This document shows positions 11,189 to 42,557 of a stretch of DNA of 64,000 nt, one piece after another (the first letter of the stretch is position 1; every line of letters begins with the position of its first letter). The notes beneath the pieces are model-generated. The model was given only the letters and a program-made list of their open reading frames with translations, ran no database searches and was not told the origin of the DNA. This DNA is from Streptomyces halobius (GTDB taxonomy: Bacteria; Actinomycetota; Actinomycetes; Streptomycetales; Streptomycetaceae): contig NZ_CP086322.1 in assembly GCF_023277745.1 (NCBI RefSeq), positions 7,874,001 to 7,938,000 of the forward strand, written 5' to 3'. The translations under genes and the position numbers were made by a program.

Positions 11189-11189
11189 A

Positions 11190-13943: not shown

Positions 13944-13969
13944 CCGGTATGCAGAGTCGGCACAGCACC

Positions 13970-14005
13970 GTCAACCATCACCTGTACGTCAACCATCACC
14001 TGTAC
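13970..14005 (+). repeat. 18-bp tandem duplication in the ribH leader
   Basis: GTCAACCATCACCTGTAC is present twice back to back, directly before the GAGGAG ribosome-binding site of ribH. It is perfect and so recent. It only lengthens the spacer between ribBA and ribH. Confidence 0.95.
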
Positions 14006-14015
14006 GAGGAGAACC

Positions 14016-25338: not shown

Positions 25339-26217
25339 TCAGTGGATGGCCCAGCTCTTTGTACGGTCGCCGCGTTTCAGGGTGTCCAGTCGGAAGGTGA
25401 GCTGGGCAGCCGCCTCCGGGTCGCCCACGTCGGCGCGGCGGATGAAGGAGCCGAGCGTGTGGAGGTCCCGTAGCTCGGTGAGGACGGAGAGCCCTGGCCA
25501 GTCAGTGAGGTCGTAGCCGTATGCGTCGGAGAAGGCGCGCAGCTGGGCCGTGGTGCGACCGAAGCGGACGCCCTGGAAGGTGTTGGCCAGGTCGGTCTCC
25601 CGGGGGCCGATCGCCGCTTCGTCCCAGTCGCCGAGCCTGGCGACGGTACCGTCCCAGAGCGTGTTGCCTGGGTAGGCGTCACCGTGGACCAATCCCTGGC
25701 CGAGGGGGAAGTCGAGCCGCGCGTAGGTGTCCAGGAGTTCGTCGGAGCGGGCCAGTATCCACTCGCGATCGCTGGGCGCAAGGACGGTGCTGAACTCGAC
25801 GACAGGGCGCAGAGTCAGATGGGGGCGATAGGCGGGCAGGTCGATAGGGGGCTCAGGGAGCCGATGCAGCAGGTTGAGCAGGCGGCCAAGATGTTCCGGG
25901 CCAGGGGGCGTACCGTCGGGCTGCGGGTAGTGCCGCCACAGGGTGATCACGTATCCGTGGACGTCCAAGGGCTGCGATACGTCGAGCGACTCGGTGACCT
26001 CAAGCCCCTGGCCGGCCAGCCAGCGGGTGAGGCCGATGGCTCGTTGAAGCGAGGCACGCTGCTCGACCCGGCTGACTCGGACAACGGCGTCGGCATGGGG
26101 CAGGAAATAGACGAAGGTGGCATGGGTACGCAGGGGTGAGATGCCGCGTGCCGAAAGCCCCCAGACCTTGCAGGCTCGTTGAGCGGCGCCTTGGGGCGTA
26201 AGAGATGTCGTGGTCAT
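25339..26217 (-). CDS. APH-fold phosphotransferase
   Basis: A 292-residue protein of the aminoglycoside phosphotransferase/choline kinase fold. The catalytic loop is GLVHGDAYPGNTLW (HGD and N) and the metal-binding DFG-equivalent is RLGDWDEAAIGPRETDLAN. The N-lobe is short (FVYFLPHADAVVRVSR supplies the Lys/Arg side). The acceptor is unknown. Its ATG overlaps the TGA of the HTH regulator gene upstream by 4 bp, so both are co-translated and this kinase is probably part of the regulatory pair of the island. Confidence 0.85.
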   Translation of the reverse strand: MTTTSLTPQGAAQRACKVWGLSARGISPLRTHATFVYFLPHADAVVRVSRVEQRASLQRAIGLTRWLAGQGLEVTESLDVSQPLDVHGYVITLWRHYPQPDGTPPGPEHLGRLLNLLHRLPEPPIDLPAYRPHLTLRPVVEFSTVLAPSDREWILARSDELLDTYARLDFPLGQGLVHGDAYPGNTLWDGTVARLGDWDEAAIGPRETDLANTFQGVRFGRTTAQLRAFSDAYGYDLTDWPGLSVLTELRDLHTLGSFIRRADVGDPEAAAQLTFRLDTLKRGDRTKSWAIH

Positions 26218-27659
26218 CGCTCCGACCGTAGCGCGCCCGTGCCGTCGATGACTTGGTAGCCGTGAATGAGGTCCGCCAGCTGCCCGATGGTCCGGTTGCC
26301 CTTGAGGTCGGTTCGGCGCACGAGACTGCTGAGCCGATCCATGGCGCTGCCGAGCTGGCGGATGCGCATCTGCGGGGGCAGGTCCAGTACATGCTGGAGG
26401 GCGGTTGTCGCCCCGGCGGGGTCCCCCTGGAGGATGCCCGTGGTGATCAGATCGATATGAGCCAGAGCCTCATCCCCGTACGAGCGTTCTTCTCTCGGTC
26501 CGCTGCGATAGGCCGCAATGGCCTCGGTGGAGTGCTGGTGGGCTTCCTCGTACTTCCCGAGGAGCGTGTAAGTGCCGCCGAGGTAGTAATCCTGCTTCGC
26601 GAGGGGAAAGGTCAGCAGGCCGCCGAACTGCTCGACCTCGTCATGGAGCGGGGTCTCTTCCCTGGCCTGCCGCATCCGGTCGATCGCGGCCAGTGACAGT
26701 TCGCGATCGCCGATTCGGGCTGCCGCACGAGCTTCGATCGCGGCGATACGGATACGGGCCTCGCCGGCCGGAGCGAGCTCGGCAGCGTGCTCCGTCAGCT
26801 TCAGCGCCATCCGATTCTGCGGCGACCACTCGGTGATCAGCGCGGCCGTGCCAGTAGTCCACGCCCGCAGCCCCGTGTGATCCGCCTGCTCGGCGCACGC
26901 GCGCGCGGTCCGGATCTGCGCCATCGCGGATGCCTGTTCGCCGAGGTTCTGCGAGGCGTGCGCGAGCAGCAGACACGCCGTCCCCGCGAGCATGAACAGC
27001 TCGCGGCTCTGCTGGGGGCGCTGGCGGCCTTGCAGGCGCTCGAAGAGATCATCCCGTACTGCAACGAGCTCGGTGAACAGCGGGAGCAGAGGTGCGTGGA
27101 CGTAGTCGGTGGCGATGCGGGCGAGAGTGAATCCGAACTGCTCAAGCTCGTCTGCGCTGACGTTGCTGGACGACATGAACTCAGCGAATGCGCTGGACGA
27201 TTGTGCCGCCCCGGTGGCGAGCGAGCGCAAGTGATCGGCTTCTTCACGGTCGGGCTCCGGTGCCTCGCGCACAGGCGCACTGCCGGGAGCGAGCGGACGG
27301 AGTTCGACGGGCACATCCAGAGCGTTCAGGAATGCCTGGGTCTTGTCGAGGCGGGTGAGACGCCGGGCTCCGGATTCGAGCTGGGAGAGGTAGCCCTGGC
27401 TGAGGCCGGTGAGGCGAGCGAGGTCGTCTTGCCGCAACCTGGCGAGTTGCCGTAGGAGACGGCTCACCTGCCCGAAGTCCAGTACCCGGAGGGCTTCTTG
27501 GATCCCAGGATTCGACCAGACCCGAGTTGGGATGGAGGGCAGCTCGGGCGTTGTCGAAGATGGGACGCCTCGTGCGCACGCCCCACACAGTTCCCGTTCG
27601 TCTGGGTTGTAGCGGCTGAGGCGACACCCGCACTTCAGGCAACGACGCTCACCGCTCAC
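26214..27659 (-). CDS. Helix-turn-helix regulator with zinc ribbon and TPR-like domain
   Basis: The protein of 481 residues begins with a CxxC...CxxC ribbon (RRCLKCGCRLSRYNPDERELCGAC). An XRE-type HTH follows at about 60-120 (LRQDDLARLTGLSQGYLSQLESGARR), then about 320 residues of helical TPR-like repeats. Such regulators in Streptomyces often sit beside cryptic clusters and sense a ligand through the repeats. GTG with a GGGAGGGG upstream is preferred; an ATG 45 bp further out is possible. It is divergent from the biosynthetic-type operon, with an inverted repeat between them. Confidence 0.82.
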   Translation of the reverse strand: MSGERRCLKCGCRLSRYNPDERELCGACARGVPSSTTPELPSIPTRVWSNPGIQEALRVLDFGQVSRLLRQLARLRQDDLARLTGLSQGYLSQLESGARRLTRLDKTQAFLNALDVPVELRPLAPGSAPVREAPEPDREEADHLRSLATGAAQSSSAFAEFMSSSNVSADELEQFGFTLARIATDYVHAPLLPLFTELVAVRDDLFERLQGRQRPQQSRELFMLAGTACLLLAHASQNLGEQASAMAQIRTARACAEQADHTGLRAWTTGTAALITEWSPQNRMALKLTEHAAELAPAGEARIRIAAIEARAAARIGDRELSLAAIDRMRQAREETPLHDEVEQFGGLLTFPLAKQDYYLGGTYTLLGKYEEAHQHSTEAIAAYRSGPREERSYGDEALAHIDLITTGILQGDPAGATTALQHVLDLPPQMRIRQLGSAMDRLSSLVRRTDLKGNRTIGQLADLIHGYQVIDGTGALRSER

Positions 27660-27742
27660 TGCCCCTCCCGACCTCGGTCGACTGACGTGGACGCTGATGT
27701 TCATGCTGGCATTGCAGTTGCCATATTGCAGCCAACTTCCTT

Positions 27743-27758
27743 TATCACTCCGGTGATA
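27743..27758. promoter_or_regulatory. Candidate operator in the divergent promoter region
   Basis: TATCAC-TCCG-GTGATA is a perfect 6-bp-arm palindrome in an unusually AT-rich pocket. Just beside it ATTGCAG is repeated directly at 27711 and 27725. This lies between the HTH regulator and the plus-strand operon and is a plausible site for that regulator. Confidence 0.45.
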
Positions 27759-27850
27759 TGCGGTCTCCCATGCGCGGTGGCAGCGTGAGCCGCAAGCCGT
27801 TGCCGAGACGAATTGTCCTCGGCGTGGCAGGGACCTTGGGAGGTATGTCC

Positions 27851-28039
27851 ATGACGGCGAACCACCAGATCGCGTTCCGCAATCTCCGCAGGGAGTCGTC
27901 GGTTGCTGAGGCCCGGCACCGTGTTGGCGTGGATCCGCATAACGCGACCATGTGTCAGCAGTATCCCTTCGCCCAGGCCCGAGGCTTCGCAGATCGAGCT
28001 GCCGCTCCGCTGCCGGTGCTGATGGAGACGGCCCGATGA
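27851..28039 (+). CDS. Small protein, unknown, coupled to the ATPase gene
   Basis: A 62-codon frame starts at ATG seven bases after GGGAGG and its TGA overlaps the ATG of the following gene as ATGA. The product (MTANHQIAFRNLRRESSVAE at the start) is basic and without a family I recognise. Coupling and the good ribosome-binding site argue that it is translated. It may be a leader or small regulator at the head of the operon. Confidence 0.5.
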   Translation: MTANHQIAFRNLRRESSVAEARHRVGVDPHNATMCQQYPFAQARGFADRAAAPLPVLMETAR

Positions 28040-28581
28040 ACTCGCTAGAGATCTTCGGCTGGCATGGCGGCTGCCGCGGAGCCCTTGATGGACCCTGGCG
28101 GGTGGCCTACGGGGCCGGCATGAATAACGCCGCCCTGGCCATGGAAGCCGTCATCGAGCACGCCGAGCTGCAATCGAGGATTTCACTGTCCTCCGACGAC
28201 CTGGCCCCCCGTCGGGCCCGAGCATTCACCCGGACGAAGCTCGCCGAGTGGGGCCTGGACGCTCTCGCCGATCGTGTACTGCTGATCGTCAGCGAACTCG
28301 TCACGAACGCACGTCGCCACGGCAGGACCAAACCCGAGGGCCTGTTGGAGGAGATAACCCTGACGATCTCCTTCCACAGCGGAGTCGTTGGGATCGAGCT
28401 GGACGACAACTCCGGCCAGCTCCCCGTACCGCGCAAGGGGCCGGTCGGTGCACTTGATGGCCGGGGCCTGCGCCTCGTAGCCGCTGAGGCGGATTCCTGG
28501 ATCTCGCACCTCAAACCGGACGGCACCGGTAAGCGGGTCCTTGCCTTCCTGCGCTGGCCATCGACGCCGCCGGCCGTCTGA
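28036..28581 (+). CDS. HATPase_c anti-sigma-like ATP-binding protein
   Basis: This 181-residue protein carries a GHKL ATPase domain of the Streptomyces RsbW-like type: ARAFTRTKLAEWGLD, the N-box VLLIVSELVTNARRHG, the G1 box GIELDDNSGQLP and LDGRGLRLVAAEADSW. Such proteins bind ATP and often act as anti-sigma factors or switch kinases. ATG overlapping the preceding small frame is chosen; a second ATG at residue 29 is possible. It heads the operon together with a truncated LuxR-type HTH and so is probably regulatory. Confidence 0.85.
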   Translation: MNSLEIFGWHGGCRGALDGPWRVAYGAGMNNAALAMEAVIEHAELQSRISLSSDDLAPRRARAFTRTKLAEWGLDALADRVLLIVSELVTNARRHGRTKPEGLLEEITLTISFHSGVVGIELDDNSGQLPVPRKGPVGALDGRGLRLVAAEADSWISHLKPDGTGKRVLAFLRWPSTPPAV

Positions 28582-28636
28582 CCGTAGCCAGCTCTCACCA
28601 CTCCACGCGTCCGATCAGATCCTGGAGCTGTTTGTC

Positions 28637-28816
28637 ATGCCCGTACACTCACCGCCTGCTCTGCTGTCCCTCCTGACACCGAGGGAAACCGAGGTCCTGG
28701 GCCTTGTCGTCGATGGCCCGAGGAACAGTGAGATCGAGCGTGTTCCGCGGGATCTCCTCCGGGTACTCGACACGCCGCGCGAGTCGGAGCCCTTCGTCGC
28801 AGGGAGCCTGCTGTGA
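28637..28816 (+). CDS. Truncated LuxR-type HTH mini-protein
   Basis: The 59-residue product contains LLTPRETEVLGLVVDGPRNSEI, which is the first two helices of a LuxR/GerE HTH. The recognition helix is replaced by ERVPRDLLRVLDTP, so DNA binding is doubtful. Its stop overlaps the GTG of the next gene (GTGA). It is either a degraded regulator kept as a translational coupler or a real small protein. Confidence 0.5.
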   Translation: MPVHSPPALLSLLTPRETEVLGLVVDGPRNSEIERVPRDLLRVLDTPRESEPFVAGSLL

Positions 28817-30114
28817 GCGTCTCGAAGAGGAGTGCCCTCGGCCTCGTCCGGACTTCAGTGGGGGAGCAGACCGTCTGGGCGCTCGTCGGGGAAGCCTCCC
28901 TGCGGCACATAACGGCTGCCCGCATCACCACGCTGGAGCTTGAGGCTCTACCTGTTGACCGAGCAGAGGCGAGCCGGCACGTCGCCGAGGTCATGTCTGC
29001 CCTGGAGGCGTACAGCTCACGACGCGCCGAGACGCCGGGTGGTGCCTCGTGGCTATACGTGCAGCACGTTCCCGTACGGCGCCTGATCACACAGCTGGTG
29101 CGGAAGCTCCTGGCACTGAGCGCCTGGAGTGAGTTCGCCGAGGCCCCGGGCCCGGTGACGCTTGCCCCATACGAGGGGTTGCTCGGGCTGCGGGACAGCA
29201 GTTCACGCGAGTACCGCGCCTACACCGTCACCTGGTCAGGTGTCGCGTACATCCTCGGTGCGCGGGCGCCGCATACCACGGTGAACGTCCAGCACGGTGC
29301 GTGGATGCCCGAGTCGGTAGCCTGGCCTGCCCTCCACAGCCGTCACATCGTTGTGATGGGCGACCGCGATGTCGCTCCGGCGAGGGCATGGGTTCGCCAC
29401 CCCAAGGCGGAGATCCACGTTCTGGGGCAGCCGCGCTTCGATGCGCTAGCTGGCCTCGGACGCGAAGCACAGCGTCGCTATCTCCAGAAGCTGCTCGGCG
29501 CTGGCAACGAGCGGGGTCCGGAGCGGATCGCGGTATGGGCCTGCCAGCCGTTCGGCCCCGATCGCCTGCGGGCTCAGGCGGACATCATCCTCGAAGGAGT
29601 GTGGAAGACCCAGAGCAGCTGGGGCCTGGTCGTTGCCCCGCACCCGGCCCAAGGGAACCACGCCTTCGACCACTTACTGCGGCGAGACGTAAGGCCGCTG
29701 GTGGCCGTGGCCGACCCGCGCGTTGGAGCGCGCGGCTGCCTGGCAGGGGCGGACGCGGTGGTGAGTGTGTCCTCGACGTGCGGCATCGAAGCCGTACTCC
29801 TCGACGTGCCCGTCGTCGAACTGGATCGCCCCGGTGACCGCACGCTCGGTCTTGCCGAGCACGCCATCGCGCATCGCTGCCGTACGGCTGCCGACGTTAC
29901 GGAGGCGCTCGACCTCGTGAGCCGGGGGAGTGCCCGAGTGCCGGCAGAAGCGTGCGATGCGGTGTGCCGCTGGCGAGGCCACAGCGCTGGCGACATCGCC
30001 CAGCTCATCATCCGCCAGGCCGAAGTCGGCATCTCGCACGCCGACCCAACCGACCACGATGCCCGCGGCGCCACGTTCGGCCTGCTCCGGGGTGAGGGAG
30101 CCACCATCCGATGA
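28813..30114 (+). CDS. GT-B-fold glycosyl- or glycerophosphotransferase-like protein
   Basis: This 433-residue protein looks like the two-Rossmann GT-B group that includes surface-carbohydrate transferases and UDP-GlcNAc 2-epimerase relatives. Features are TVNVQHGAWMPESVAWPAL in the first half, HVLGQPRFDALAGLG between domains, then VVAPHPAQGNHAFD, and the nucleotide-binding-like ADAVVSVSSTCGIEAVLLDVPVVELD in the second. The donor and acceptor are unknown. It overlaps the TS-like gene by ATGA. I infer a transfer step on the modified nucleoside made by the next genes. Confidence 0.6.
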   Translation: MSVSKRSALGLVRTSVGEQTVWALVGEASLRHITAARITTLELEALPVDRAEASRHVAEVMSALEAYSSRRAETPGGASWLYVQHVPVRRLITQLVRKLLALSAWSEFAEAPGPVTLAPYEGLLGLRDSSSREYRAYTVTWSGVAYILGARAPHTTVNVQHGAWMPESVAWPALHSRHIVVMGDRDVAPARAWVRHPKAEIHVLGQPRFDALAGLGREAQRRYLQKLLGAGNERGPERIAVWACQPFGPDRLRAQADIILEGVWKTQSSWGLVVAPHPAQGNHAFDHLLRRDVRPLVAVADPRVGARGCLAGADAVVSVSSTCGIEAVLLDVPVVELDRPGDRTLGLAEHAIAHRCRTAADVTEALDLVSRGSARVPAEACDAVCRWRGHSAGDIAQLIIRQAEVGISHADPTDHDARGATFGLLRGEGATIR

Positions 30115-31064
30115 CAAACCTGACCGCCGACAGCGTCGCCGAACTCTTCACCATGGCCGTCACGTTGGCCAAGAGCGGGGAGAAGGTCAGCCCGCGCGGG
30201 ATGGCTACTCGCGAGGTCCTCGATCTCAACATGCGCCTGACTCAGCCCCGGGCACGGCTCCTGTACGCGCCGCCCGCCCGCATCTTGAACCCCGCCTTCG
30301 CGGTGGCCGAGACCGTCTGGCACCTTTCCGGCTCCGACGCCCCATGGATCTTCGACTACAACGCGCGGCTGCGGCAGTACACCGACGACGGGATCCTGCG
30401 CGGCGCCTATGGGCCCAGGATGCGGAACTGGGGCGGGGAGGTCGACCAGCTCCACCGTGTCGTCGAGATCCTCAAGGATGACCCCGACTCCCGGAGAGCG
30501 ACCATCCAGCTCTACGACCCGGCTCGCGACGCCGCGGGCCACAAAGACGTCCCCTGCACACTCGGCTTCCGCTTCCACGTACGCGGCGGACGTCTGCACA
30601 TGTCGACCACGATGCGCGGCCAGGACGTGTGGATCGGCATGCCGTACGACGTGTTCTTCTTCACCACGCTCCACGAGCTGGTCGCCGGATGGCTGGACAT
30701 CGGCCTGGGCGACTACCACCACCATGTCGACTCTCTGCACATCTACGAGCGCGACATCGACAAGGCTGATGCGCTGACCGACGTGGCGGCGAGTCCGGTG
30801 ATGCCTGAACTGTCCACGCCATGGGAGGGGTTCGAGACGCTCCTCGATCAGGTTGAAGCCCGTGATGAAACGGGGCACCCGGGCTGGGATGCCATGGCGG
30901 AGGTAATACGCAGCTACCAGTTGTGGAAGGGCGGCCAGCGCGAGCAGGCGTGGCGTATCGCCGACGCCATCGATGGTCCGCTCGGAGAAGCCCTGACCGC
31001 CTGGTACACCGAGCTGACCCGCCGCATCAGCAGCACGCCGGCATCAGCAGCGGGGACGAGGTGA
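30111..31064 (+). CDS. Thymidylate-synthase-fold (d)CMP-type hydroxymethylase/methylase
   Basis: A 317-residue TS homologue. Conserved are R128-R129 (DPDSRRAT), nucleophile C149 (DVPCTLGF), R169, D172, and H210 and Y212 (SLHIY). The Asn that reads the uracil ring in ThyA (E. coli N177 in GLPFN) is Asp here, D180 in GMPYD. The same change marks T4 dCMP hydroxymethylase and alters ThyA to dCMP preference. I therefore predict a cytidine nucleotide substrate, with methylene-tetrahydrofolate giving hydroxymethyl or methyl at C5. The chain is longer at both ends than ThyA. It is coupled to its neighbours by 4-bp overlaps. Confidence 0.78.
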   Translation: MTNLTADSVAELFTMAVTLAKSGEKVSPRGMATREVLDLNMRLTQPRARLLYAPPARILNPAFAVAETVWHLSGSDAPWIFDYNARLRQYTDDGILRGAYGPRMRNWGGEVDQLHRVVEILKDDPDSRRATIQLYDPARDAAGHKDVPCTLGFRFHVRGGRLHMSTTMRGQDVWIGMPYDVFFFTTLHELVAGWLDIGLGDYHHHVDSLHIYERDIDKADALTDVAASPVMPELSTPWEGFETLLDQVEARDETGHPGWDAMAEVIRSYQLWKGGQREQAWRIADAIDGPLGEALTAWYTELTRRISSTPASAAGTR

Positions 31065-32791
31065 CGGCCGCCATGGACCACGTTCCGTCCGTTGTCCTGG
31101 GCGTGTGCTCCTTCACCCACGATTCCGCCGCTGCGCTCCTCATTGACGGCGAGCTGGTGGGCTTCGTCGAGGAGGAACGCCTGTCCCAGCGGAAACACAC
31201 GCGTGAGTACCCCCGCCACGCCATCGGATGGCTGCTGGACGAGGCTGGCATCACGCCAGGTGACGTCGATGCCGTCGCGTACAACTTCCAGCCCATCCGC
31301 TACCTCGCCGAGACCCCCGCCGCCTTGCGGATGACTTCGTCGGGGATGACCCGCTCACGTGCCTTGCCGCGTGCGGCGGGGTTCGCCAAGGTCGCCATGC
31401 GCACTCGGCGTCGCCTGCAGGTCCTTGCTTGGTACTTCCCCGGTGCCCAGGTCACCCCGGTACTGCACCACCGCGCGCATCAGCTTGCGGCGTTCACAGC
31501 ATCGGGCTGGGACGAGTCGGCAGTTCTCGTCGTCGACAGTCTCGGTGAGCGGCAGACCACCACCATCGCCCACGCCCACCAGGGCGTTCGTCCGCGGGTG
31601 CGCATGCTGGACGCGCTGATGGACCCGGCTTCGCTGGGCTATGTGTACGGGGCGGTCACTGAGTACCTCGGCTGGCGGCGCGGCGACGAAGAGGGCACCG
31701 TCATGGCTCTCGCGGCGCTTGGCGACCCCGCCCGGTTCCGGGACCTCTTCAGCCGTGCAGTCCGCACAACAGCCACCGGCTTCGCCGTGGATCCGGCGTA
31801 CTTCCTGCCCCGCGTGCTTGCCTCCGGCTATCCGCGCATTGCGCCTCGGTTCGTCGATGAGACCTGCCCGCCCCGGCACCCGGGCGAGCCGGTTCAGGAG
31901 ATCCACCAGGACCTGGCCGCCGCCCTCCAAGAGCGCACCGAGCAGATCATGGTGCACCTCGCGCGGCGAGCCCGCGTAGTGAGTGGCTCGCGCCGGCTGT
32001 GCGTGGGTGGCGGTGTGGCCACCAACTGCGTCAGCATTGGACGGATCGTCGAGTCCGGCGTCTTCGACGAGGTCTTCGTCCCACCGGCCCCCGGCGACGC
32101 CGGCACGGCGATCGGCGCAGCGGTCGCCGTGCACACCGACAGCGGCAGTCGACGGCCCCTCACCGGGATCGCTCGTACCTGCTACCTCGGCCCGTCCTTT
32201 CCGGAGCCGGTGCTGCACCTCACCCCGTGGCCCGGACTGAAGCAGAAGATCCTCGGCGCGGACGCCGCGGAGTTTCTCGCGGACCAGTTGGCCCACGGGA
32301 TGATCGTGGGGCTCTTCCAGGGCCGCGTCGAGGCCGGCCCCCGTGCCCTCGGGAACCGTTCGATTCTCGCTTCGCCCCTCGAAGCCGGGGTGGTCGAGCG
32401 GCTGAACGCCACGGTGAAGTTCCGCGAGCCCTTCCGCCCGTTCGCACCCATGGTCGCCGCCGCCTGTGCCGGTGAGTTCTTCACCCTCGGTCAGGACGCG
32501 CCGTACATGTCCATGGCCTCCCAGGTGACCAACGCCGCCCGCGAGCGCCTCCCCGCGATCGTCCACGCCAACGGCACCGCCCGCCTCCAGACCGTCACCG
32601 CGACACAGAACCCGTTCATGCACGAGGTCCTGGAGGCGTTCGCTCGCCGTACGGGAGTCCCGGTCCTGATCAACACCTCCCTCAACGTCAAGGGAAAACC
32701 CATCTGCGGCACCCCGGAGATGGCGTTGGACTGCTTCGCGAACTCCGGGCTGGACGCCCTGCTGCTCGAAGGGCGGTGGATCACCAAGTGA
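31061..32791 (+). CDS. NodU/CmcH/TobZ-type carbamoyltransferase
   Basis: This 576-residue enzyme of the O-carbamoyltransferase family has an N-terminal Kae1-like ATPase domain (LGVCSFTHDSAAALLIDG, VEEERLSQRKH, TPVLHHRAHQLAAF with metal-binding His, LVVDSLGE, LCVGGGVATNC). The C-terminal YrdC-like domain follows (FQGRVEAGPRALGNRSILA, FREPFRPFAPMV, VLINTSLNVKGKPICGTP). It moves carbamoyl phosphate to a hydroxyl via carbamoyl-AMP. The hydroxymethyl group expected from the TS-like enzyme is an obvious acceptor, but a sugar hydroxyl is equally possible. GTG overlaps the preceding stop; an ATG 12 bases later is an alternative. Confidence 0.93.
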   Translation: MTAAMDHVPSVVLGVCSFTHDSAAALLIDGELVGFVEEERLSQRKHTREYPRHAIGWLLDEAGITPGDVDAVAYNFQPIRYLAETPAALRMTSSGMTRSRALPRAAGFAKVAMRTRRRLQVLAWYFPGAQVTPVLHHRAHQLAAFTASGWDESAVLVVDSLGERQTTTIAHAHQGVRPRVRMLDALMDPASLGYVYGAVTEYLGWRRGDEEGTVMALAALGDPARFRDLFSRAVRTTATGFAVDPAYFLPRVLASGYPRIAPRFVDETCPPRHPGEPVQEIHQDLAAALQERTEQIMVHLARRARVVSGSRRLCVGGGVATNCVSIGRIVESGVFDEVFVPPAPGDAGTAIGAAVAVHTDSGSRRPLTGIARTCYLGPSFPEPVLHLTPWPGLKQKILGADAAEFLADQLAHGMIVGLFQGRVEAGPRALGNRSILASPLEAGVVERLNATVKFREPFRPFAPMVAAACAGEFFTLGQDAPYMSMASQVTNAARERLPAIVHANGTARLQTVTATQNPFMHEVLEAFARRTGVPVLINTSLNVKGKPICGTPEMALDCFANSGLDALLLEGRWITK

Positions 32792-33840
32792 AGATCGGAT
32801 ACAGCTTCTGGGGCTTCCTCGGAAACGGGGTCACCGACACCCCAGACGGAGGCCGCAGCCACCGCCGGCCGCTAATCGACGCGCTTCTCAGGCGTGGTCA
32901 CGACATCGTGTTTCTGCAGGCTGACCGCGATCGGCTCGAATCGGGCGACGCTCTCGGCGGCGTGTACACCTTCGACGCCGGCATCCCGGACATCGACGCG
33001 TTGTTCCTCGAATGGCGCTGGCCCATCGAGGGGCGCAACACCACCGCCTGCGGCACCGGAGGCCACACCTGTGATCTCCACCGTCAGGCGGAGCTGCTCC
33101 AGCACTACACCGTTCGACGCCGTACCCCCACCGTGATCTGGGACAAAGACCGGCAACTGCGCGAGGACAGCATCTGGCGGCGGATCCGGAACGTCGAGGT
33201 GTGCGAGGCCGCCCTCATGCCCACCCCCGGTGCCCACCGCCTGCTCTTCCCGGTTGACGATGCGCTCCTGGACGGCGCCGACCCCCTAGCCCTGGCCAGC
33301 GAGGACCGGAAGACGCCGCTCGGTTACGTCGGCAACCAGTACGACCGCGACGACGAGTTCGACCGCTTCTTCGCTCCAGCCGCCGCCCGCTTCGAGCACC
33401 GGGTGGGTGGCAAGTGGACCAGTACCGAGCGCTGGCCACACGTCACCTTCCTCGGCCGAATCCCATTCAACGCCGTCTCCCGGCTCTACCGCAGCACACT
33501 GGCCACGGTCCTGCTCCTGCCCGAGCGGTACGCCGCGGCCGGACAGATGACGCAGCGGATCTTCGAAGCCGTCCTCGCCGGATGCCTGCCGCTGGCGCCG
33601 GTCGGCATCCGGCACGTCGAGCGAATCGTCCCCGAGGACTTGGTGGTCAAGACGGGCGGCCAAGTGATCCGGCGGATCGATGACCTCCAGAAGACCGCGG
33701 GCAGCCGGCAGCACGCCGAACTGATCTCGGAGTGCATCGGTCGGCTGGAGCTGTTCCGGCTCAGCCACCAGGTCAAGGCGCTGGAGTCCGTGCTGAAGAT
33801 GGCCACCGCCGCCGCGCTGTCAAGGCAGGGGGCCGCGTGA
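32788..33840 (+). CDS. CgeB-like glycosyltransferase
   Basis: This 350-residue protein resembles CgeB/spore-maturation glycosyltransferases: KIGYSFWGFLGNG at the N-terminus, TPTVIWDKDRQLRED in the centre, LGYVGNQYDRDDEFDRFF at the domain switch, and QMTQRIFEAVLAGCLPLAPVGI, the donor-site helix of GT-B enzymes. GTG overlaps the carbamoyltransferase stop. It probably glycosylates the pathway intermediate; the sugar donor may be supplied through the downstream epimerase. Confidence 0.72.
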   Translation: MKIGYSFWGFLGNGVTDTPDGGRSHRRPLIDALLRRGHDIVFLQADRDRLESGDALGGVYTFDAGIPDIDALFLEWRWPIEGRNTTACGTGGHTCDLHRQAELLQHYTVRRRTPTVIWDKDRQLREDSIWRRIRNVEVCEAALMPTPGAHRLLFPVDDALLDGADPLALASEDRKTPLGYVGNQYDRDDEFDRFFAPAAARFEHRVGGKWTSTERWPHVTFLGRIPFNAVSRLYRSTLATVLLLPERYAAAGQMTQRIFEAVLAGCLPLAPVGIRHVERIVPEDLVVKTGGQVIRRIDDLQKTAGSRQHAELISECIGRLELFRLSHQVKALESVLKMATAAALSRQGAA

Positions 33841-33936
33841 TGAACCGCCTCGCTCGGGCCGGCAGGCCCAGATCATCCGTATGTGTTCCGGCGGCCGGGC
33901 CGTCCGGGCACCCGAGCACCTCTAGGCTGGAGCACC

Positions 33937-34449
33937 ATGAAGAAGGTCGCCATCGTCGGCTGCGGAGGCAGCGGCAAGTCGGATCTTGCCCGCAAGCTGG
34001 CCAAGATCCTGGATGCTCCGGTGACGCATCTGGATGCCGCGTTCTACGACGACGAGTGGAACGCCCTGCCCATGGAGAAATTTGCCGAGATGCAGCGCGG
34101 CCTGGTCGCGCAGCCGACGTGGATCATCGACGGCAACTACAACTCCACGCTGCAGGTCCGGCTCGAAGCCTGCGACACCGTGGTGCTGATGGACGTCTCG
34201 ACACCGGCGGCACTGTGGGGGATCGTCTCCCGGCAGATCAGGCACGGCGCCGGGCACAAGGGCAACGGGGTGCACAACCGCATCACCTGGGGCGTGATCA
34301 AGTACGTGGCGACGTACCGGCGCAAGATGCGACCGCGGGTCATGGCCAAGACCGAGGAGTTCGCCGCCGGGCACGCCGAAGTGGTGCTCCTCACCAGCCG
34401 CCGGCACACGCGACGCTGGCTGCAGCAGGTCGCCGCACAGCACACCTGA
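33937..34449 (+). CDS. P-loop small-molecule kinase (topology-modulation/adenylate-kinase-like)
   Basis: A 170-residue P-loop protein with Walker A GCGGSGKSDLARKL at residues 8-21, HLDAAFYDDEWN as the acceptor-side motif, WIIDGNYNSTL and a basic LID region (RQIRHGAGHKGNGVHNR). It is of the group annotated as topology modulation protein or adenylate kinase-like. A nucleoside or nucleotide substrate would fit the operon. A 96-bp gap and a weak AGGCTGGAG ribosome-binding site separate it from the genes before, so it may have its own initiation. Confidence 0.75.
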   Translation: MKKVAIVGCGGSGKSDLARKLAKILDAPVTHLDAAFYDDEWNALPMEKFAEMQRGLVAQPTWIIDGNYNSTLQVRLEACDTVVLMDVSTPAALWGIVSRQIRHGAGHKGNGVHNRITWGVIKYVATYRRKMRPRVMAKTEEFAAGHAEVVLLTSRRHTRRWLQQVAAQHT

Positions 34450-34471
34450 GCACTCCGCGCCCCGAGCGGGG

Positions 34472-35323
34472 GTGCGGCTCGTGATCACCAACCCCTTTCT
34501 CGACCCCGACCGCCAGGGCGAGCTGTACGGCAATGCCACCCGGCTGGCCAGCCGCTCCAGCGCCCTGATGCGGGCCAAGACCGCAGGTCGTTTCGTTCCA
34601 GAGGTCATCGTCCAGCTGGCCCAGGCGCACCGAGCCGGGGCCGATCGCCGTCTCGGTCTGGTAGCGGACATCGGATGCGGTCGGGGCACCAGCAGCCGCG
34701 TCCTGGCCAAGCAGCTGAAGCCGCAGCAGCTCGTGGGTATCGACGCTTCTCCTGCCCTCCTGGCCGCTGCCCGCAGTCGTGCCGGCCACTACCCCGGAAC
34801 CCAAGTGGCGTTCCTTCAAGGGGACTTCCACCAGCTTCCCCTGCCCGATGATTCGTGTGAGCTGGCCGTTGCAGCGTTCTGCCTGTACCACTCACTCGAC
34901 CCCGGGCGGGCCATTGTGGAAATCGCCCGCTCCCTGGCCCCTGGCGGGCTCGCCGTGCTGGTCACCAAGGCGCTCGACAGTTACAGAGAGATGGATGCCC
35001 TGGTCGCCGGGCCCCTTGACCCGCGCGCCGAGCGGCACGAGAGCCTCTACGCCACCGCGCACGGAGGCAACCTCGCCGACATGGCGCAGTGGGCCATGGA
35101 CTTGGTGGCGGTCGAGCGCGAGGAGCACCGCTTCGAGTTCTCCGGCCTTGACCACGCCGCCGAGTACCTCGCCACCAACCCCAAGTACGACCTCGCACCC
35201 GGCCTGTACGGCAACCCCGGCGCCCTGGCCGCCGCGCTGCACGAGTGGCACCCGGACAAGCCGATCACCACCACCTCGGTCATCACCTATCTCGTGGCCC
35301 GGCCGCATGGAGGTCGGACGTGA
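34472..35323 (+). CDS. Class I SAM-dependent methyltransferase
   Basis: A 283-residue methyltransferase of the ubiE/Methyltransf_11 type, with SAM motif I VADIGCGRGTSSR (about residues 63-75), acidic VGIDASPALLAAA, motif II LPDDSCELAVAAFCLYHS and post-motif ARSLAPGGLAVLV. The C-terminal half (HHAAEYLATNPKYDL-type cap, here DHAAEYLATNPKY) probably forms the acceptor lid. The acceptor is unknown; an O-methylation of the sugar or base is likely in context. GTG start; it overlaps the next gene by GTGA. Confidence 0.88.
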   Translation: MRLVITNPFLDPDRQGELYGNATRLASRSSALMRAKTAGRFVPEVIVQLAQAHRAGADRRLGLVADIGCGRGTSSRVLAKQLKPQQLVGIDASPALLAAARSRAGHYPGTQVAFLQGDFHQLPLPDDSCELAVAAFCLYHSLDPGRAIVEIARSLAPGGLAVLVTKALDSYREMDALVAGPLDPRAERHESLYATAHGGNLADMAQWAMDLVAVEREEHRFEFSGLDHAAEYLATNPKYDLAPGLYGNPGALAAALHEWHPDKPITTTSVITYLVARPHGGRT

Positions 35324-36084
35324 AGCTCTTCCACTTCAGCAAGCACTACGAGACCCCCGCGAAGGCAGCCGCCGCAGCCTGCCACTACGGATGGCTCGCT
35401 ACCCATGCGAAGCCGCTGCGGCAGCCGGGGCTAACGGTAGTCGGGCCGACCAGCCTGACCTTCGAGCACATCGACGGTCGTCATGCGCAGAAGGAGGACC
35501 TGCTGCCGCTTGCGGCCCTCCTGGGCGATGCGCACGGTGCTGCCTGGGCAACTGACCTGCACCGAGCACAGCTGGACATGCCGCACGAACTCGGGAACGG
35601 CAGCCTCCTCGCGGATTTCCGCTCCTGCCGGGAAGTAGCCCTGCGCAGCCGGCTGGAGCAGGGTTTTCTCCCCGACACAGGCGCCCTGCACGCGATGCTG
35701 ACGCTGCTGGAGCGCTCCACTGACGGGCCGGCCGCCTTCTACAAGGACAGCAACCCGCGGAACTTCCTGCTCACCCAGGACGGCACGATCTTCAGCGTCG
35801 ACACCGACGACCTGACCCTCGCGCCCTTCGGATACGACCTGGCCAAGCTGATCACGACGCTGATCATGACGCACGGCCCGATCGACCCACCCGACATCGA
35901 TGCAGCCCTGAACAGCTACAACCACGCCGCCGCCAGTCACGACGCCCAGCTAGGTGCGACGAGCCGAGAGTGCCTCGGCGACTTCCTCGCACTGCATGCC
36001 GTACTGACCGCGCCGTACGCCGGGCGCAACGGTTACCGCTACGGCTGGCTGCATCAGCACCAACCAACCCAAGGCTCCTCATGA
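35320..36084 (+). CDS. APH-fold small-molecule kinase A
   Basis: This 254-residue kinase-fold protein has catalytic motif FYKDSNPRNFLLT, where the usual HGD is replaced by YKD, and the metal motif FSVDTDDLTLAPFGYDLAKL. The start VKLFHFSKHYETPAKA is compact and the N-lobe is reduced. It probably phosphorylates a hydroxyl of the pathway compound or an amino-alcohol. Overlaps on both sides (GTGA and ATGA) tie it to the methyltransferase and the phosphatase. Kinase before and after a phosphatase suggests a protected, phosphorylated intermediate. Confidence 0.75.
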   Translation: MKLFHFSKHYETPAKAAAAACHYGWLATHAKPLRQPGLTVVGPTSLTFEHIDGRHAQKEDLLPLAALLGDAHGAAWATDLHRAQLDMPHELGNGSLLADFRSCREVALRSRLEQGFLPDTGALHAMLTLLERSTDGPAAFYKDSNPRNFLLTQDGTIFSVDTDDLTLAPFGYDLAKLITTLIMTHGPIDPPDIDAALNSYNHAAASHDAQLGATSRECLGDFLALHAVLTAPYAGRNGYRYGWLHQHQPTQGSS

Positions 36085-36737
36085 TCACCACAGAACTCGT
36101 CTTCGTCCGCCACGGCGAGGCCCGGTGCAACGCTGACGGCCGCGTCGGCGGTCCCGCAACCTGCACAGGGCTCACCCACCTCGGATACCTCCAGGTCGAG
36201 AGGGCTGCAGCCCTCCTGGCCACCGAGCACCGAGCCCAGCCCTTCACCGCGCTCTACGCCGGCCCCCGACTGCGCCTCCAGCAGAGCGGACAGATCCTCG
36301 GGCACGCCCTCGGCCTGGAGCCCCTCGTAGAACCCGGCCTCGATGGACCCGTTCACGGCGAGGCTGACGGCAAGCCCTGGCACTACGTGAAGACCGCAGC
36401 CAACGGCGGACCACATGCCCACCCAGACCAACCGTGGGCCGCCGGATCCGACACCTGGAACGGCTACCTCCAGCGAGCCGAAGCGTTCCTCCACGACCTC
36501 ATCAACCGCCACGAAGGCGACCGCGTATTGTTCGCCGCCCACGGCGAGACGATCCTCGCCGCACACGCCCTCCTACTCGGACTCGGGTCGATGACGGAAG
36601 CCGGCTTCACGGTCTCCCACGCCTCCGTCACCCGCTGGCAGCACCACCGAAACCGGCTCGGCCAGCGCCGCTGGATGCTCGACCGGCACAACGACACCGC
36701 CCACCTCGCCGCATTACCAACGGGAGCGACGCCGTGA
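36081..36737 (+). CDS. Histidine phosphatase family protein
   Basis: This 218-residue member of the phosphoglycerate-mutase-like phosphatases has the catalytic VFVRHGEARCN at residues 7-17, AGPRLRLQQSGQIL (second Arg) and the second catalytic His in LFAAHGETILAAH. The substrate cannot be read from the sequence; in this operon it may remove the phosphate added by one of the flanking kinases or dephosphorylate a nucleotide. The C-terminal HRNRLGQRRWMLDRHNDTAHL is typical of the small-molecule branch. Confidence 0.85.
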   Translation: MITTELVFVRHGEARCNADGRVGGPATCTGLTHLGYLQVERAAALLATEHRAQPFTALYAGPRLRLQQSGQILGHALGLEPLVEPGLDGPVHGEADGKPWHYVKTAANGGPHAHPDQPWAAGSDTWNGYLQRAEAFLHDLINRHEGDRVLFAAHGETILAAHALLLGLGSMTEAGFTVSHASVTRWQHHRNRLGQRRWMLDRHNDTAHLAALPTGATP

Positions 36738-37573
36738 GCAGCACGGCTGACGCCGACCCGCGCATCGAACTCGCGCGCCAAACGGTCGGATCTGTCAGCA
36801 TCGTCGCCGACCCGACGCTTCCGCCCCACCTCCTGCAGCTCGTCGACACCCGGGGCAACACCTACTTCGCAAAGCAGCACGCAAGCCAGGCCCGCTACGT
36901 TCAAGAGACGCACGCATATCTGTCCTGGAGGGTCCATCTCCAGGACCGCGCCCCCGAGTTAGTCGACCGCCAGGACTCGACGCACATCCTCCTGCTCACC
37001 GCGGTGCCCGGTCGGAGCGGTGACGCACTGCTCCCTGGTTCGGACGACGAGGAGAAGGCGCACCACGACGCCGGAGTTGCCCTTCGCGCTCTTCATCACG
37101 CGACGAACCGGCGTAGCACCGGAGCCGTAGGAAGCGCGCTCGCAGATCGTCTCCGCAGCTGGGTTGCCAGGGCCGACAGCACGGACCTCCTTTCGGGCGC
37201 CGAGCGGAAGCTCCTCCTGCAGATCGCGGACGAGCTGGCCGGCACCTGCATGGACAGCGCCGTCTGCCACCTCGACTACCAACCCAGGAACTGGCGCGTC
37301 GGAGACGGCTTCTGGACCCTCGACTTCGAGCACATGCGACGCGACGCCCGCATCCGGGACTTCTCCCGCCTTGAGTTCCGCCACTGGCAGCAGGCCCCTC
37401 GACTGCGCGAGGCGTTCTTCACCGGATACGGCAGTCCTCCCTCGGACACCGAACGACGGCTACTGGAGCGCTTCGGCGCCATCGAAGCCATCACCGCACT
37501 CGTCCGCGGTCACGACAAGGGCGACGCCGTCCTGAGCGCCCACGGCCGCACCGTCCTGTCCCAACTGAACTGA
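36734..37573 (+). CDS. APH-fold small-molecule kinase B
   Basis: A 279-residue aminoglycoside-phosphotransferase-fold protein. The N-lobe Lys is in TYFAKQHAS, the catalytic loop is VCHLDYQPRNWRV (HxD and N) and the metal motif is WTLDFEHMRRDARIRDFSRL. It differs clearly from the other kinase two genes upstream, so they are not a recent duplication. GTG overlaps the phosphatase stop. It could act in self-resistance or in a phosphate-protected intermediate. Confidence 0.82.
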   Translation: MSSTADADPRIELARQTVGSVSIVADPTLPPHLLQLVDTRGNTYFAKQHASQARYVQETHAYLSWRVHLQDRAPELVDRQDSTHILLLTAVPGRSGDALLPGSDDEEKAHHDAGVALRALHHATNRRSTGAVGSALADRLRSWVARADSTDLLSGAERKLLLQIADELAGTCMDSAVCHLDYQPRNWRVGDGFWTLDFEHMRRDARIRDFSRLEFRHWQQAPRLREAFFTGYGSPPSDTERRLLERFGAIEAITALVRGHDKGDAVLSAHGRTVLSQLN

Positions 37574-37591
37574 TCACTGGCCACCCCACCT

Positions 37592-38599
37592 ATGGAGAGT
37601 TCCGTGTCAGACAGCCCCTCCTCCGCGACCGCATCGAGCCCTCGGCGCGCGCTGGTGACCGGCGCGGCCGGCTTCATCGGATCCCACCTCGCCCACGCTC
37701 TGCTCCAGACAGGAACCACCGTCATCGGCGTCGATCGCCGCGACCCCGCAAGAGACCAGACGGCCGCCGCCAACATGGCCCCATTGCGCGGCCTCCCGGG
37801 CTACATGCACATCACCGCCGACCTCCTCACCTGCGCGATCGATCCGCTCCTCATCGACGCAGACGTGATCTTTCACCTGGCCGGCATTCCCGGCGTACGG
37901 CCCTCGTGGGGACCGCAATTCGGCGAGTACGTCAACTCCAACATCCTCGCCACCCAGCGGCTCATGGACGCCGCCACCCGCATGCGGGTCCCGCGGCTCG
38001 TCGTGGCCTCCTCCTCCAGCGTCTACGGCCCCACCAACGGCGGCCCCAGCGTCGAAGGCGATCACCCCCGCCCGGCCTCCCCGTACGCGGTCACCAAGCT
38101 CGCCGAGGAACAGCTCTGCCTCGCCCACGCCTCCCGAGCCGACTACCCCACCAGCGTCATCGCCCTGCGCTACTTCACGGTCTACGGCCCCCGCCAGCGC
38201 CCCGACATGTTCACCCACCGCGCCCTCCATGCCGCCATGACCGGGCAGCCGCTGCGGCTGTACGGAGACGGTCACCAGCGTCGCGACTTCACGTACATCG
38301 ACGATGCCGTCGCCGCGACCATCTCCGCTGCGGGCGCCCCCATCTACACAGGCATCGTCAATGTCGGCGGCGGAGCCAACGCCTCCCTGATCGACGTCAT
38401 CAACATCGCCAACAACCTCGTCGGCCGAGAAATCCAGATCCACGCCGACAACGCCCGCAACGGAGACGTACAGACCACCCGCGCCGACCCCCGCCGCGCC
38501 CAGGCCGTACTCGGCTGGCAGCCCACGGTCGACCTGCCCACCGGCATGCGCGCACAGATGCGAGCCCTGACCCAGCCCTCGTACCGGACTGCCGCCTGA
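37592..38599 (+). CDS. NAD-dependent sugar-nucleotide epimerase/dehydratase
   Basis: This 335-residue extended SDR has ALVTGAAGFIGSHL (NAD motif, about residues 20-33), VIFHLAGIPGVRPSW, SSSSVYGPTNGG and the catalytic SPYAVTKLAEE (Tyr and Lys). The C-terminal half has ALRYFTVYGPRQRPDM and YGDGHQRRDFTYIDDAV, which contact the UDP- or dTDP-sugar. It is of the GalE/WbpP/RmlB type. It probably prepares the sugar donor for the two glycosyltransferase-like enzymes upstream. A small gap (18 bp) separates it from the kinase gene. Confidence 0.92.
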   Translation: MESSVSDSPSSATASSPRRALVTGAAGFIGSHLAHALLQTGTTVIGVDRRDPARDQTAAANMAPLRGLPGYMHITADLLTCAIDPLLIDADVIFHLAGIPGVRPSWGPQFGEYVNSNILATQRLMDAATRMRVPRLVVASSSSVYGPTNGGPSVEGDHPRPASPYAVTKLAEEQLCLAHASRADYPTSVIALRYFTVYGPRQRPDMFTHRALHAAMTGQPLRLYGDGHQRRDFTYIDDAVAATISAAGAPIYTGIVNVGGGANASLIDVINIANNLVGREIQIHADNARNGDVQTTRADPRRAQAVLGWQPTVDLPTGMRAQMRALTQPSYRTAA

Positions 38600-38626
38600 C
38601 CACTGCGCGACGACAGAGGAGTTGCC

Positions 38627-39748
38627 GTGGAGAGCCCAGAGAAAGCCCGGCTGGACGCCTTCTTCCGACGAATCACCGAGCGCTTCCCCGCTGCCGGTCA
38701 GGCCACCTCGTTGATCATTACGCACCTGCTCCCCGAACGCCCGGCGTTCCTGCGCGCGATGGCCCGCACGACCACGGTCGCCGCCGTTCTTCCCAAACCC
38801 AAGTCCGTGACCGAGGAGGCCCTGGCAGAGGTCCGCCGCTCATACGTGGTCCACGCCCTCACCCGTGAACTGTTCGCCGATCCGACCAGCGCCCTGAAGT
38901 ACCTCGAAGACACCGCGCCCTGTCGTGACGTTGTCGTCCTCGACATCGGCGGCTACTACGCCCCCAGCCTCGACACCATGGTCGACAAATTCTCCGGCCG
39001 CATCCTGGGAGTCGTCGAGGACACCGAAAACGGTCACCAGCGATACGAAGCGCTCGGCCAACTGCCCTGCCCCGTGTTCTCCGTGGCCCGCTCACCGCTC
39101 AAGGACTGCGAGGACCACCTCGTCGGGCGGTCCATCGTCTTCTCCACGGAAGCCCTCGTCCGCACCCGAGGCGACATCCTTGCCAGCCGCGATGCCTGCG
39201 TCATCGGATTCGGCAAAGTCGGCCGCAGCGTCGCCCAGACCCTGCGAGCCCACGACCTGCGCGTAGTCGTCTACGACAACGATCCCGTCAAGCAGGTGCA
39301 AGCCCACGCCCAGGGCTTCCGTACCACCGCCTCCTGCACGGAAGCGATCCACGAGGCCGGACTCGTGCTGTGCGCCACCGGCAACCTGGCCCTGCGGCAG
39401 AGCGACTTCGCAGCCCTGCACAATGGCGCGTACCTCGCTTCGGTCACCTCCTCCGAGGACGAACTCGAACTCGATGCGCTCGACGACCTCTACCGGCGTA
39501 CCCCAGTCGGGGATCAGCTGACTCGCTACGACGTGACCGGCCACTACTTCTACGTGCTCGCCAACGGCAACGCCGTCAACTTCCTGCACGGTGCGGCTGT
39601 CGGCACATACATCCACCTTGTCCAGGCCGAGATACTCGCCGCCACATCCGCCCTCAGCCGGGGCACGCACGCCCCGATCCTCCACGAGATGTCCGCAGAC
39701 GCCCGCCAGGCCATCGCCAGAGCCTGGCTCGACCACTTCGCCGGGTGA
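38627..39748 (+). CDS. Divergent S-adenosylhomocysteine-hydrolase-like NAD enzyme
   Basis: At 373 residues it is about 100 shorter than SahH. The NAD-binding core is clear (CVIGFGKVGRSVAQTLRAHD, VVVYDNDPVK, LVLCATGN), and other SahH landmarks are altered: VLDIGGYYAP for the DDGGDLT region, VVEDTENGHQR for EETTTG, and a C-terminal NAVNFLHGAAVGTYIHLVQAE. SahH oxidises the ribose 3'-OH with tightly bound NAD. A nucleoside 3'-keto chemistry on the pathway compound is therefore an attractive idea; ordinary SAH recycling is less likely. GTG with AGAGGA upstream. Confidence 0.7.
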   Translation: MESPEKARLDAFFRRITERFPAAGQATSLIITHLLPERPAFLRAMARTTTVAAVLPKPKSVTEEALAEVRRSYVVHALTRELFADPTSALKYLEDTAPCRDVVVLDIGGYYAPSLDTMVDKFSGRILGVVEDTENGHQRYEALGQLPCPVFSVARSPLKDCEDHLVGRSIVFSTEALVRTRGDILASRDACVIGFGKVGRSVAQTLRAHDLRVVVYDNDPVKQVQAHAQGFRTTASCTEAIHEAGLVLCATGNLALRQSDFAALHNGAYLASVTSSEDELELDALDDLYRRTPVGDQLTRYDVTGHYFYVLANGNAVNFLHGAAVGTYIHLVQAEILAATSALSRGTHAPILHEMSADARQAIARAWLDHFAG

Positions 39749-40764
39749 TCCACATGCCCCCGTCCCGCAGCCATATCCACAACACGACTGAGGCGTACCT
39801 CGGGCGTCACCCCGAGGAGCGGGAAGCGCTCGTGCCTCTCCTGAACGCCCTGACGCGCCCGGAGGGCCCGACCAGCCGTGAGACCTACCCCGGCCACGTC
39901 ACCTGCAGCGCCATCGTGATCGACGGGCACGACCAGGTGCTGCACATCCACCACAAGATCCTCGACAAGGACCTCGCGCCCGGTGGGCACACCGAGCCTG
40001 CCGACACGGCTCTTCCCAACGTCGCCCTGCGCGAACTCCAAGAGGAAGCCGGCATTCCGCCCAAGGTCGTGGTGCCGCTCTTGGGATACGAAGGCATTCC
40101 GCTCGATATCGACGTACACGACATCGCTGCCAACACCGACAAGGGCGAACCGGCGCACCAGCACTACGACTTCCGCTTCGCTTTCCGGCTCCTCGGCAAG
40201 CAGAAGATCCACCTCCACGCCGAGGAAATCACGAACTACCGATGGCCGGCGGGCAGGTCGACGCCCTCGCCGAGGACCTGGGCGTTGGTCAGGATGCCGC
40301 GGCTGGCGGCGATGAAGCGGTCCTGGATCTGGTGGCGTTGGTCTGCCAAATCCCGTGCCGATCACCAGAATCCGAAAAGATCACTAAACCTGCAGCACAA
40401 CCCCTACCGCCAACCGAGCACCATGAAAGCCCCATCCCACAACCGCACTTCACCACAGCCACAGAGTCCGGGAATGACCACTACACCCCCAGACCACAGC
40501 TCCACATACCCAGTGATCACCTCCGGATTTGGCACTGTCCCCGTCAGATCCGCCAGCCCGCCCGGACACACGGCGTTGATGACGCGGCGGATCGTTGCGG
40601 TGCTCGGCGCGAGGCGCACGTTCAGCGAGGCCACCAACCGGGCACCGAGCCGGGCGCGGGTCTGCTGCGGGGCATGGGCGGCCCACTGTCCGATCGCCGC
40701 GAACGAGCGGGCGCCCGCCACCACCGCAGAGGCGGCGACCAGCAGCACGGCCGGGAACGGATGA
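39745..40764 (+). pseudogene. NUDIX hydrolase, 3' end replaced
   Basis: The first about 166 residues are a NUDIX domain with PGGHTEPADTALPNVALRELQEEAGI-type box (the part read is GGHTEPADTALP then VALRELQEEAGI), HYDFRFAFRL and an HAEEITNYRW strand. Right after that strand, near 40243, the DNA changes to minus-strand helicase and transposase fragments, and the frame runs on as meaningless sequence for another 170 codons. The natural C-terminal helix is missing. The catalytic box is complete, so residual activity is possible. GTG overlaps the preceding stop. It would hydrolyse a nucleotide diphosphate bond. Confidence 0.75.
40243..40355 (-). pseudogene. Helicase C-terminal-domain fragment
   Basis: The minus strand reads HQIQDRFIAASRGILTNAQV followed by LGEGVDLPA, which matches motif V of large DEAD/DEAH helicases found in actinomycete mobile elements. 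Only about 35 residues remain, with a stop just upstream and the NUDIX gene joined directly downstream. Confidence 0.6.
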
Positions 40765-40805
40765 CGTCTGCTCGCCGGTGACGCGGGTGGAAGCATCACG
40801 ATCAC
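40404..40805 (-). pseudogene. ISAs1-family transposase N-terminal fragment
   Basis: The minus-strand frame has HPFPAVLLVAASAVVAGARSF, AIGQWAAHAPQQTRARLGAR and STATIRRVINAV. This is the DDE_Tnp_1-associated N-terminal region of ISAs1/H-repeat transposases. The catalytic DDE part is absent and the tail after GLADLTG is unrelated. It marks recombination at the right border of the island. Confidence 0.7.
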
Positions 40806-42318: not shown

Positions 42319-42557
42319 TAGAGGACCATCCCTTCTGCAGCCCTCACGGGTAGGGTTGTGACCTCTCGGTCCCGGTGGGGTACGGCCAGTGTCGCGAGCT
42401 GCTCGACGGCCATCATGAGTTCCGCCGGCCCTGCCGGGCCCGAGGCCGTCTGACCGGCTTCAGGGACACGCCCCTTCGAGGGCCGATTAATGAGCTCCCG
42501 GCAGACGTCCTCACTACCGAGCAGGTGCTCCGCGCACGACACAGGAGTACTTCTTTC

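Follow-up and report, generated by a model that had tools for sequence, protein, structure and literature searches.

The window analysed here, a 64,000-nucleotide stretch (G000:C1:7874001-7938000) of the 9.24-Mb Streptomyces halobius genome (G000), carries at 27.8-40.2 kb a gene run that includes a thymidylate synthase (TS)-fold enzyme, an O-carbamoyltransferase (CarbT) and a CgeB-like glycosyltransferase. The operon is a real, conserved gene set. We regard it as an evenly balanced proposition that this is a decayed, element-borne copy of an operon conserved among actinomycetes, whose relatives build a small cytosine nucleotide or nucleoside decorated with sugar and carbamoyl groups. Such a pathway would join three chemistries that usually occur apart, namely phage-type cytosine C5 hydroxymethylation, T4-like glycosyl transfer and antibiotic-type O-carbamoylation, and it would count whether it yields nucleosides of a new class or hypermodified cytosine in bacteria. 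The genes of the run are listed below, L002 being the nearest of 36 related loci (89.6% DNA identity) and the reference for damage.

28120-28581, plus strand: HATPase_c_2 regulator (PF13581 on the longer frame 27952-28581; 81% in L002)
28541-28816, plus strand: fusion remnant of a LuxR-like gene start and an HAD phosphatase gene end (~941 bp missing versus L002 7104-8046)
28813-30114, plus strand: GT1, GT-B/UDP-GlcNAc-2-epimerase-like (433 amino acids versus 624 in L002; most of the first Rossmann half gone)
30111-31064, plus strand: TS-fold enzyme, predicted pyrimidine nucleotide C5-hydroxymethylase (PF00303; MilA E 7e-41; C149, D180, R128, G170)
31061-32791, plus strand: CarbT, GdmN/NovN/TobZ type (PF16861, PF02543; GdmN E 7e-92)
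32788-33840, plus strand: CgeB-like GT-B glycosyltransferase
33937-34449, plus strand: P-loop kinase, 'DNA topology modulation' family (NF005994 E 2e-43, below cut-off)
34472-35323, plus strand: class I S-adenosylmethionine (SAM) methyltransferase (PF08241 E 7e-21)
35320-36084, plus strand: APH-like kinase 1, APH1 (weak PF01636 match, E 0.004, below cut-off)
36081-36737, plus strand: histidine phosphatase (PF00300 E 7e-24)
36734-37573, plus strand: APH-like kinase 2, APH2 (no Pfam match; kinase motifs by eye; matched in 28 of 36 loci)
37592-38599, plus strand: NDP-sugar epimerase, nearest MoeE5 (257 bits)
38627-39748, plus strand: SahH-like NAD enzyme (PF00670 E 6e-17; 373 amino acids)
39745 to ~40245, plus strand: NUDIX protein, C-terminus lost (PF00293; homology to L002 ends at 40246)

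All operon genes named in a first-pass annotation of this DNA lie on the plus strand and 7 of 11 junctions are 4-base overlaps, in keeping with its description of a run joined mostly by ATGA or GTGA overlaps. Its family assignments (TS-fold, carbamoyltransferase, two glycosyltransferase-like proteins, kinases, methyltransferase, phosphatase, epimerase, SahH-like and NUDIX) were confirmed, some of them by weak matches or by eye; the gene set it listed stands but is longer in relatives, where HAD and KdsB-like genes belong to it. The operon TS was the one TS-fold protein found in G000 (PF00303 search). GC content per 2-kb step was 0.64-0.69 across 24-40 kb and 0.70-0.75 in the remaining steps, except for 0.65 at 62-64 kb.

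Conservation of the operon

A one-genome-per-species scan yielded 36 loci with a TS 51-88% identical to that of the window. The loci were picked by TS, so that its presence is given, and some are shortened by contig ends or by the length of stretch compared. TS, CarbT and CgeB occurred together in 35 of the 36 (any match), which bears out the co-conservation that the first-pass annotation had proposed as a check. Counting any match, CarbT and CgeB were each found in 35 loci, GT1 in 33, HAD in 32, the kinase and APH1 in 31 each, the epimerase in 30, the methyltransferase, phosphatase and APH2 in 28 each, the KdsB-like protein in 26, the SahH-like protein in 23 and NUDIX in 22. At coverage of at least 70%, the counts were 35 for TS, 34 for CarbT, 32 for CgeB, 22 for SahH-like and 21 for KdsB-like. 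The order epimerase-TS-CarbT-CgeB-kinase-methyltransferase is common to at least six loci (L034, L035, L144, L146, L147 and L148). Because this order recurs in other genomes and the ratio of nonsynonymous to synonymous substitution (dN/dS) versus L002 is 0.11-0.39 (15 genes compared), the gene run goes beyond chance; the ratios fit purifying selection in the family and say nothing on whether the window copy works.

Mapped operons from other genera (L034, L035, L143-L148 and L027, the last beginning at a contig start and cut there) keep TS, CarbT and CgeB and gave no match to HAD, GT1 or KdsB. The SahH-like and NUDIX genes on the one hand, and HAD, GT1 and the KdsB-like gene on the other, are probably optional modules. 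Within the genus, a close TS (at least 64% identity) was present in 22 of 294 other genomes, and these, together with the named strains that have fuller operons, are places to seek the product. In a set of 394 genomes from the class, G000 among them, ten others carried a CgeB-like gene, with TS within 3 kb in all ten and CarbT between the two in eight; a TS match was present in 25 other genomes, 15 of them without a CgeB match. In the 14 regions examined around distant TS genes of the genus, neither CarbT nor CgeB was matched at E 1e-6.

The CgeB-TS link is kept even without CarbT in two relatives. L149 (G443) carries at 10315-14085 CgeB, a TS with a Lys/Gly pattern, an NDK-family gene and a protein labelled radical-SAM-like by eye (no Pfam match), CarbT being absent. 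L150 (G493) has a TS, a protein similar to that of L149 and a CgeB match with one internal stop; no NDK gene was called there. Two operon variants, L145 and L151, have a gene in common that is sulfotransferase-like (PF13469) in L151, and L145 also encodes a radical SAM protein. In five operon copies (L005, L026, L036, L030 and L008), the stretch compared matched nothing other than TS, CgeB or APH2, which suggests frequent decay or variation, contig ends not having been checked for each.

A probable cytosine-type TS-fold enzyme

In addition to the catalytic Cys (C149), the window TS has Asp (D180) at the position of TS Asn177, and Asp occupies this cytosine site in 17 of 17 operon TS rows examined. 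On this basis an ordinary dUMP thymidylate synthase was rejected, and the cytosine-type specificity residue reported by the first-pass annotation is upheld; Asp177 in TS is tied to dCMP in a study of phage cytosine modification (PMC8670742). The nearest solved structures are those of MilA, the CMP 5-hydroxymethylase of mildiomycin (PDB 5b6d, 5jnh), with which the operon enzymes have the TS fold, the catalytic Cys and the Asp in common. They differ at Lys133 and Ala176 of MilA, a pair that presumably has a role in its specificity. The Lys133 position is Arg in the window (R128) and in 17 of 17 operon rows, as in T4 gp42 and 18 of 19 phage rows; the Ala176 position is Ser, again as in T4 gp42, in 10 of 17 operon rows and Gly in 7, including the window (G170). 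In the tree, where the MilA row is a 207-residue piece, the operon TS clade (support 100/100) stands apart from the MilA group (100/99). Its grouping with phage enzymes, in a tree that lacks T4 gp42, reached 82/84 support only, with long phage branches.

The prediction that this TS makes a C5-hydroxymethylated cytosine nucleotide has good support from its residues, from the neighbouring genes and from published phage precedent. Because the enzyme is not a member of the MilA clade and carries a single dCMP-type residue (Arg; the Gly of the window at the second position is ambiguous), deoxycytidine would be at least as likely a substrate as cytidine. Of the earlier proposal, the sequence supports a C5-hydroxymethylated cytosine nucleotide as the start.

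Putative carbamoylation, glycosylation and tailoring genes

In phmmer searches, CarbT matched GdmN (311 bits) and decarbamoylnovobiocin carbamoyltransferase (309 bits) along almost its full length, and TobZ (248 bits) with its best stretch at 282-573. The acceptors of these three enzymes are ansamycin, noviose and tobramycin hydroxyls and not a cytosine nucleotide. CarbT is distant from the phage 5-hydroxymethylcytosine (5hmC) carbamoyltransferase (25% identical, 71 bits in BLASTP), which O-carbamoylates 5hmC (5cmdC) and also free 5hmdCTP, and whose gene stands beside a TS with Asp177, as in the operon (PMC8670742). Two stretches in viral contigs fitted a pattern for close CarbT relatives, neither confirmed. 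For the CgeB model, T4 beta-glucosyltransferase (BGT) ranked first among known folds, tied with other GT-B enzymes; absence of a row from the structural match lists was not counted as evidence.

The epimerase matched MoeE5 (257 bits) and 6zl6 (237 bits), whereas no entry under the name UDP-glucose 4-epimerase scored above 122 bits. MoeE5 is a UDP-glucuronate 4-epimerase, and the likeness points to a uronic acid sugar. GT1 is similar in fold to UDP-GlcNAc 2-epimerase and, at lower rank, to MurG, and the KdsB-like protein is nearest CMP-Kdo synthetases. The SahH-like protein has its NAD domain in common with S-adenosylhomocysteine hydrolase, and its H33, E131, K159 and D163, invariant in 12 rows, line up with catalytic residues of that enzyme; two further catalytic His residues and the C-terminal NAD-binding tail are absent. 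O-carbamoylation and sugar attachment, as envisaged by the first-pass annotation, would fit the family assignments of CarbT and CgeB.

Proposed pathway

The reactions, their order and the product given here are what we infer from gene content. The TS would hydroxymethylate a cytosine nucleotide at C5, with dCMP the probable substrate and CMP the other candidate. The CgeB-like enzyme would place a sugar on the new CH2OH, CarbT would O-carbamoylate either this CH2OH or the sugar on it, and the sugar nucleotide, supplied by the epimerase, would probably be a UDP-uronic acid. Tailoring of the product and removal of protecting phosphates may fall to the kinases, the methyltransferase and the phosphatases, while the two optional modules could contribute an oxidation or elimination step and an acidic sugar activated with CMP. 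The product would most likely be a small nucleotide or nucleoside and not a polymer, a preference that follows from CarbT being nearer to GdmN and TobZ than to the phage 5hmC enzyme, and from kinase, phosphatase, SahH-like and KdsB-like genes that fit a small molecule.

Several points weigh against this small-molecule pathway. The functions of the kinase, APH and GT1 proteins are weakly assigned, and the Gly at the sugar-facing TS position of the window type matches the pattern of neither MilA nor T4. Neither the operon maps listed, read by eye, nor the family assignments of the window genes brought a gene for export or self-resistance to notice. Lastly, two of three viral contigs read by eye (L157 and L163) have a DnaE-like gene close to CgeB and TS, which fits DNA modification.

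Alternative readings and phage parallels

Hypermodification of DNA (or RNA) is the first alternative, unlikely in our view. Here the TS would supply 5-hydroxymethyl-dCMP, the P-loop kinase and host enzymes would raise it to the triphosphate for entry into DNA, and CgeB and CarbT would decorate its hydroxymethyl group in the manner of the T4 glucosyltransferases. The T4 genes b-gt and 42 adjoin each other, a GT-B glycosyltransferase gene beside a hydroxymethylase gene as in the operon; unlike T4, the operon is chromosomal and has CarbT, an epimerase, APH-like kinases and more. The shared Arg128, the Ser at position 170 in part of the family, the tied top rank of BGT and the NDK-family gene behind CgeB and TS in L149 all favour this alternative. 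So do CgeB-like genes on 13 viral contigs, 8 of which have a TS match within the stretch compared (that of L160 weak). Against it stand the antibiotic-type CarbT, the lack of an obvious role for the two APH-like kinases and the SahH-like, HAD and KdsB-like proteins, and a search of 50,697 phage records, none of which matched CgeB at E 1e-5. Nucleic-acid hypermodification, which the first-pass annotation had named as its alternative, gains weight from the phage parallels and loses some through CarbT. A related version, about as doubtful, is that mobile elements carry a T4-like pathway (5-hydroxymethyl-dCMP, uronic glycosylation, carbamoylation) whose product either enters the DNA of host or element or acts inside the cell as a nucleotide analogue; if true, it would mean chromosomally encoded hypermodified cytosine outside phages.

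In one uncultured viral contig (L157, 7971-11581), a CgeB-like gene, a P-loop kinase gene (by eye), TS and an epimerase gene stand in a row, with DnaE-like and dCMP-deaminase-like genes (named by eye) nearby. Of 232 confirmed viral TS loci, 80 were compared, and among these 80 there was one CarbT match (L170) and one weak CgeB match (L171). The published 5hmC carbamoyltransferase has viral relatives in L170 (4385-6049; 35% identical) and L246 (39%), and a TS is also present in L170.

A mildiomycin-like ribonucleoside antibiotic, in which a MilA-type enzyme makes 5-hydroxymethyl-CMP for tailoring and export, seems improbable. MilA provides the nearest solved TS structures and the Gly at position 170 is small like the Ala of MilA, but the TS falls outside the MilA group and has Arg in place of Lys133; nor was a CMP hydrolase or transporter noticed by eye among the operon maps listed, where no targeted search was made. 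Less probable still is tailoring of a cell-surface glycan, with the KdsB-like protein, GT1, epimerase and CarbT acting on a sugar of the wall and the product of the TS being a side matter: the likenesses to CMP-Kdo synthetase, to UDP-GlcNAc 2-epimerase and, at lower rank, to MurG speak for it, but other-genus operons retain TS, CarbT and CgeB where HAD, GT1 and KdsB have no match, and the CgeB-TS link outlasts CarbT. Anti-phage defence was not supported by a PADLOC test of ten proteins (phosphatase, epimerase, NUDIX and integrase left out), in which eight had no match, the methyltransferase matched one mad2 domain (E 2e-18) and the XRE regulator three helix-turn-helix models.

The integrative element

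Upstream of the operon lie the following features.

23674-23815, no strand: attL-like repeat at the 3' end of a C39-peptidase-like gene (142 bp; 91% identical copy at G000:C1:8009174-8009315)
23825-24943, minus strand: tyrosine integrase (PF00589 E 4e-11; 73% homologue at the same place in L103 of G064)
25339-26217, minus strand: APH-family phosphotransferase (PF01636 E 2e-18)
26214-27704, minus strand: XRE-family regulator (PF13560; weak TPR matches; 88% in L002)

That the operon is carried on an integrative element, a setting named in the first-pass annotation, is indicated by the integrase, by the duplication of an attachment-like site and by the matching layout of a relative. In that relative, L103, the order is C39, integrase, APH, XRE (in two pieces) and operon, and G064 has a KdsB-like open frame of 266 amino acids. 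Only two 13-bp direct repeats, rejected as chance, were found between 21.5-25.4 and 40-45 kb, and the element end was therefore sought further out. The distal 142-bp copy adjoins an apparent second integrase end; the elements may therefore stand in tandem, and the span of 112 kb need not be one unit. Plasmids gave no match for CgeB and none at the DNA level for 23.7-28.9 kb. Behind KdsB, two gene families recur, each in 6 of the 17 regions examined, and an IstB-like ATPase was the only named family when three proteins from such regions were compared with Pfam; replication and mobilisation functions are only a reading of these genes.

Damage to the window copy

All ten genes from TS to the SahH-like gene are full length. 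Damage overlooked by the first-pass annotation appears on comparison with L002: ~0.94 kb is missing across the LuxR-like gene end and most of the HAD gene, ~573 bp (~0.57 kb), about a third, is missing inside GT1, and homology stops inside NUDIX, after which the KdsB-like gene continues the operon in relatives. The HAD frame of L002 itself is also broken. No intact KdsB-like gene was found in the window operon or G000; a C-terminal piece lies ~53 kb beyond the operon (C1:7967771-7967998, 76 residues, 63% identical), and the one further match was weak (E 4e-8) and unrelated-looking. Given the loss of most of the HAD and KdsB-like genes, a third of GT1 and the NUDIX tail, the window copy as a whole is probably dead, and expression of the 27.8-40.2 kb remnant would therefore not test the pathway.

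Adjoining the truncation point, the minus strand at 40247-40534 resembles, by eye, a helicase gene fragment, followed by one further repeat.

40535-40787, no strand: 253-bp repeat (100% copy at G000:C1:7945172-7945424)

Beyond the truncation point, 42375-43577 encodes an IS110-type transposase (PF01548).

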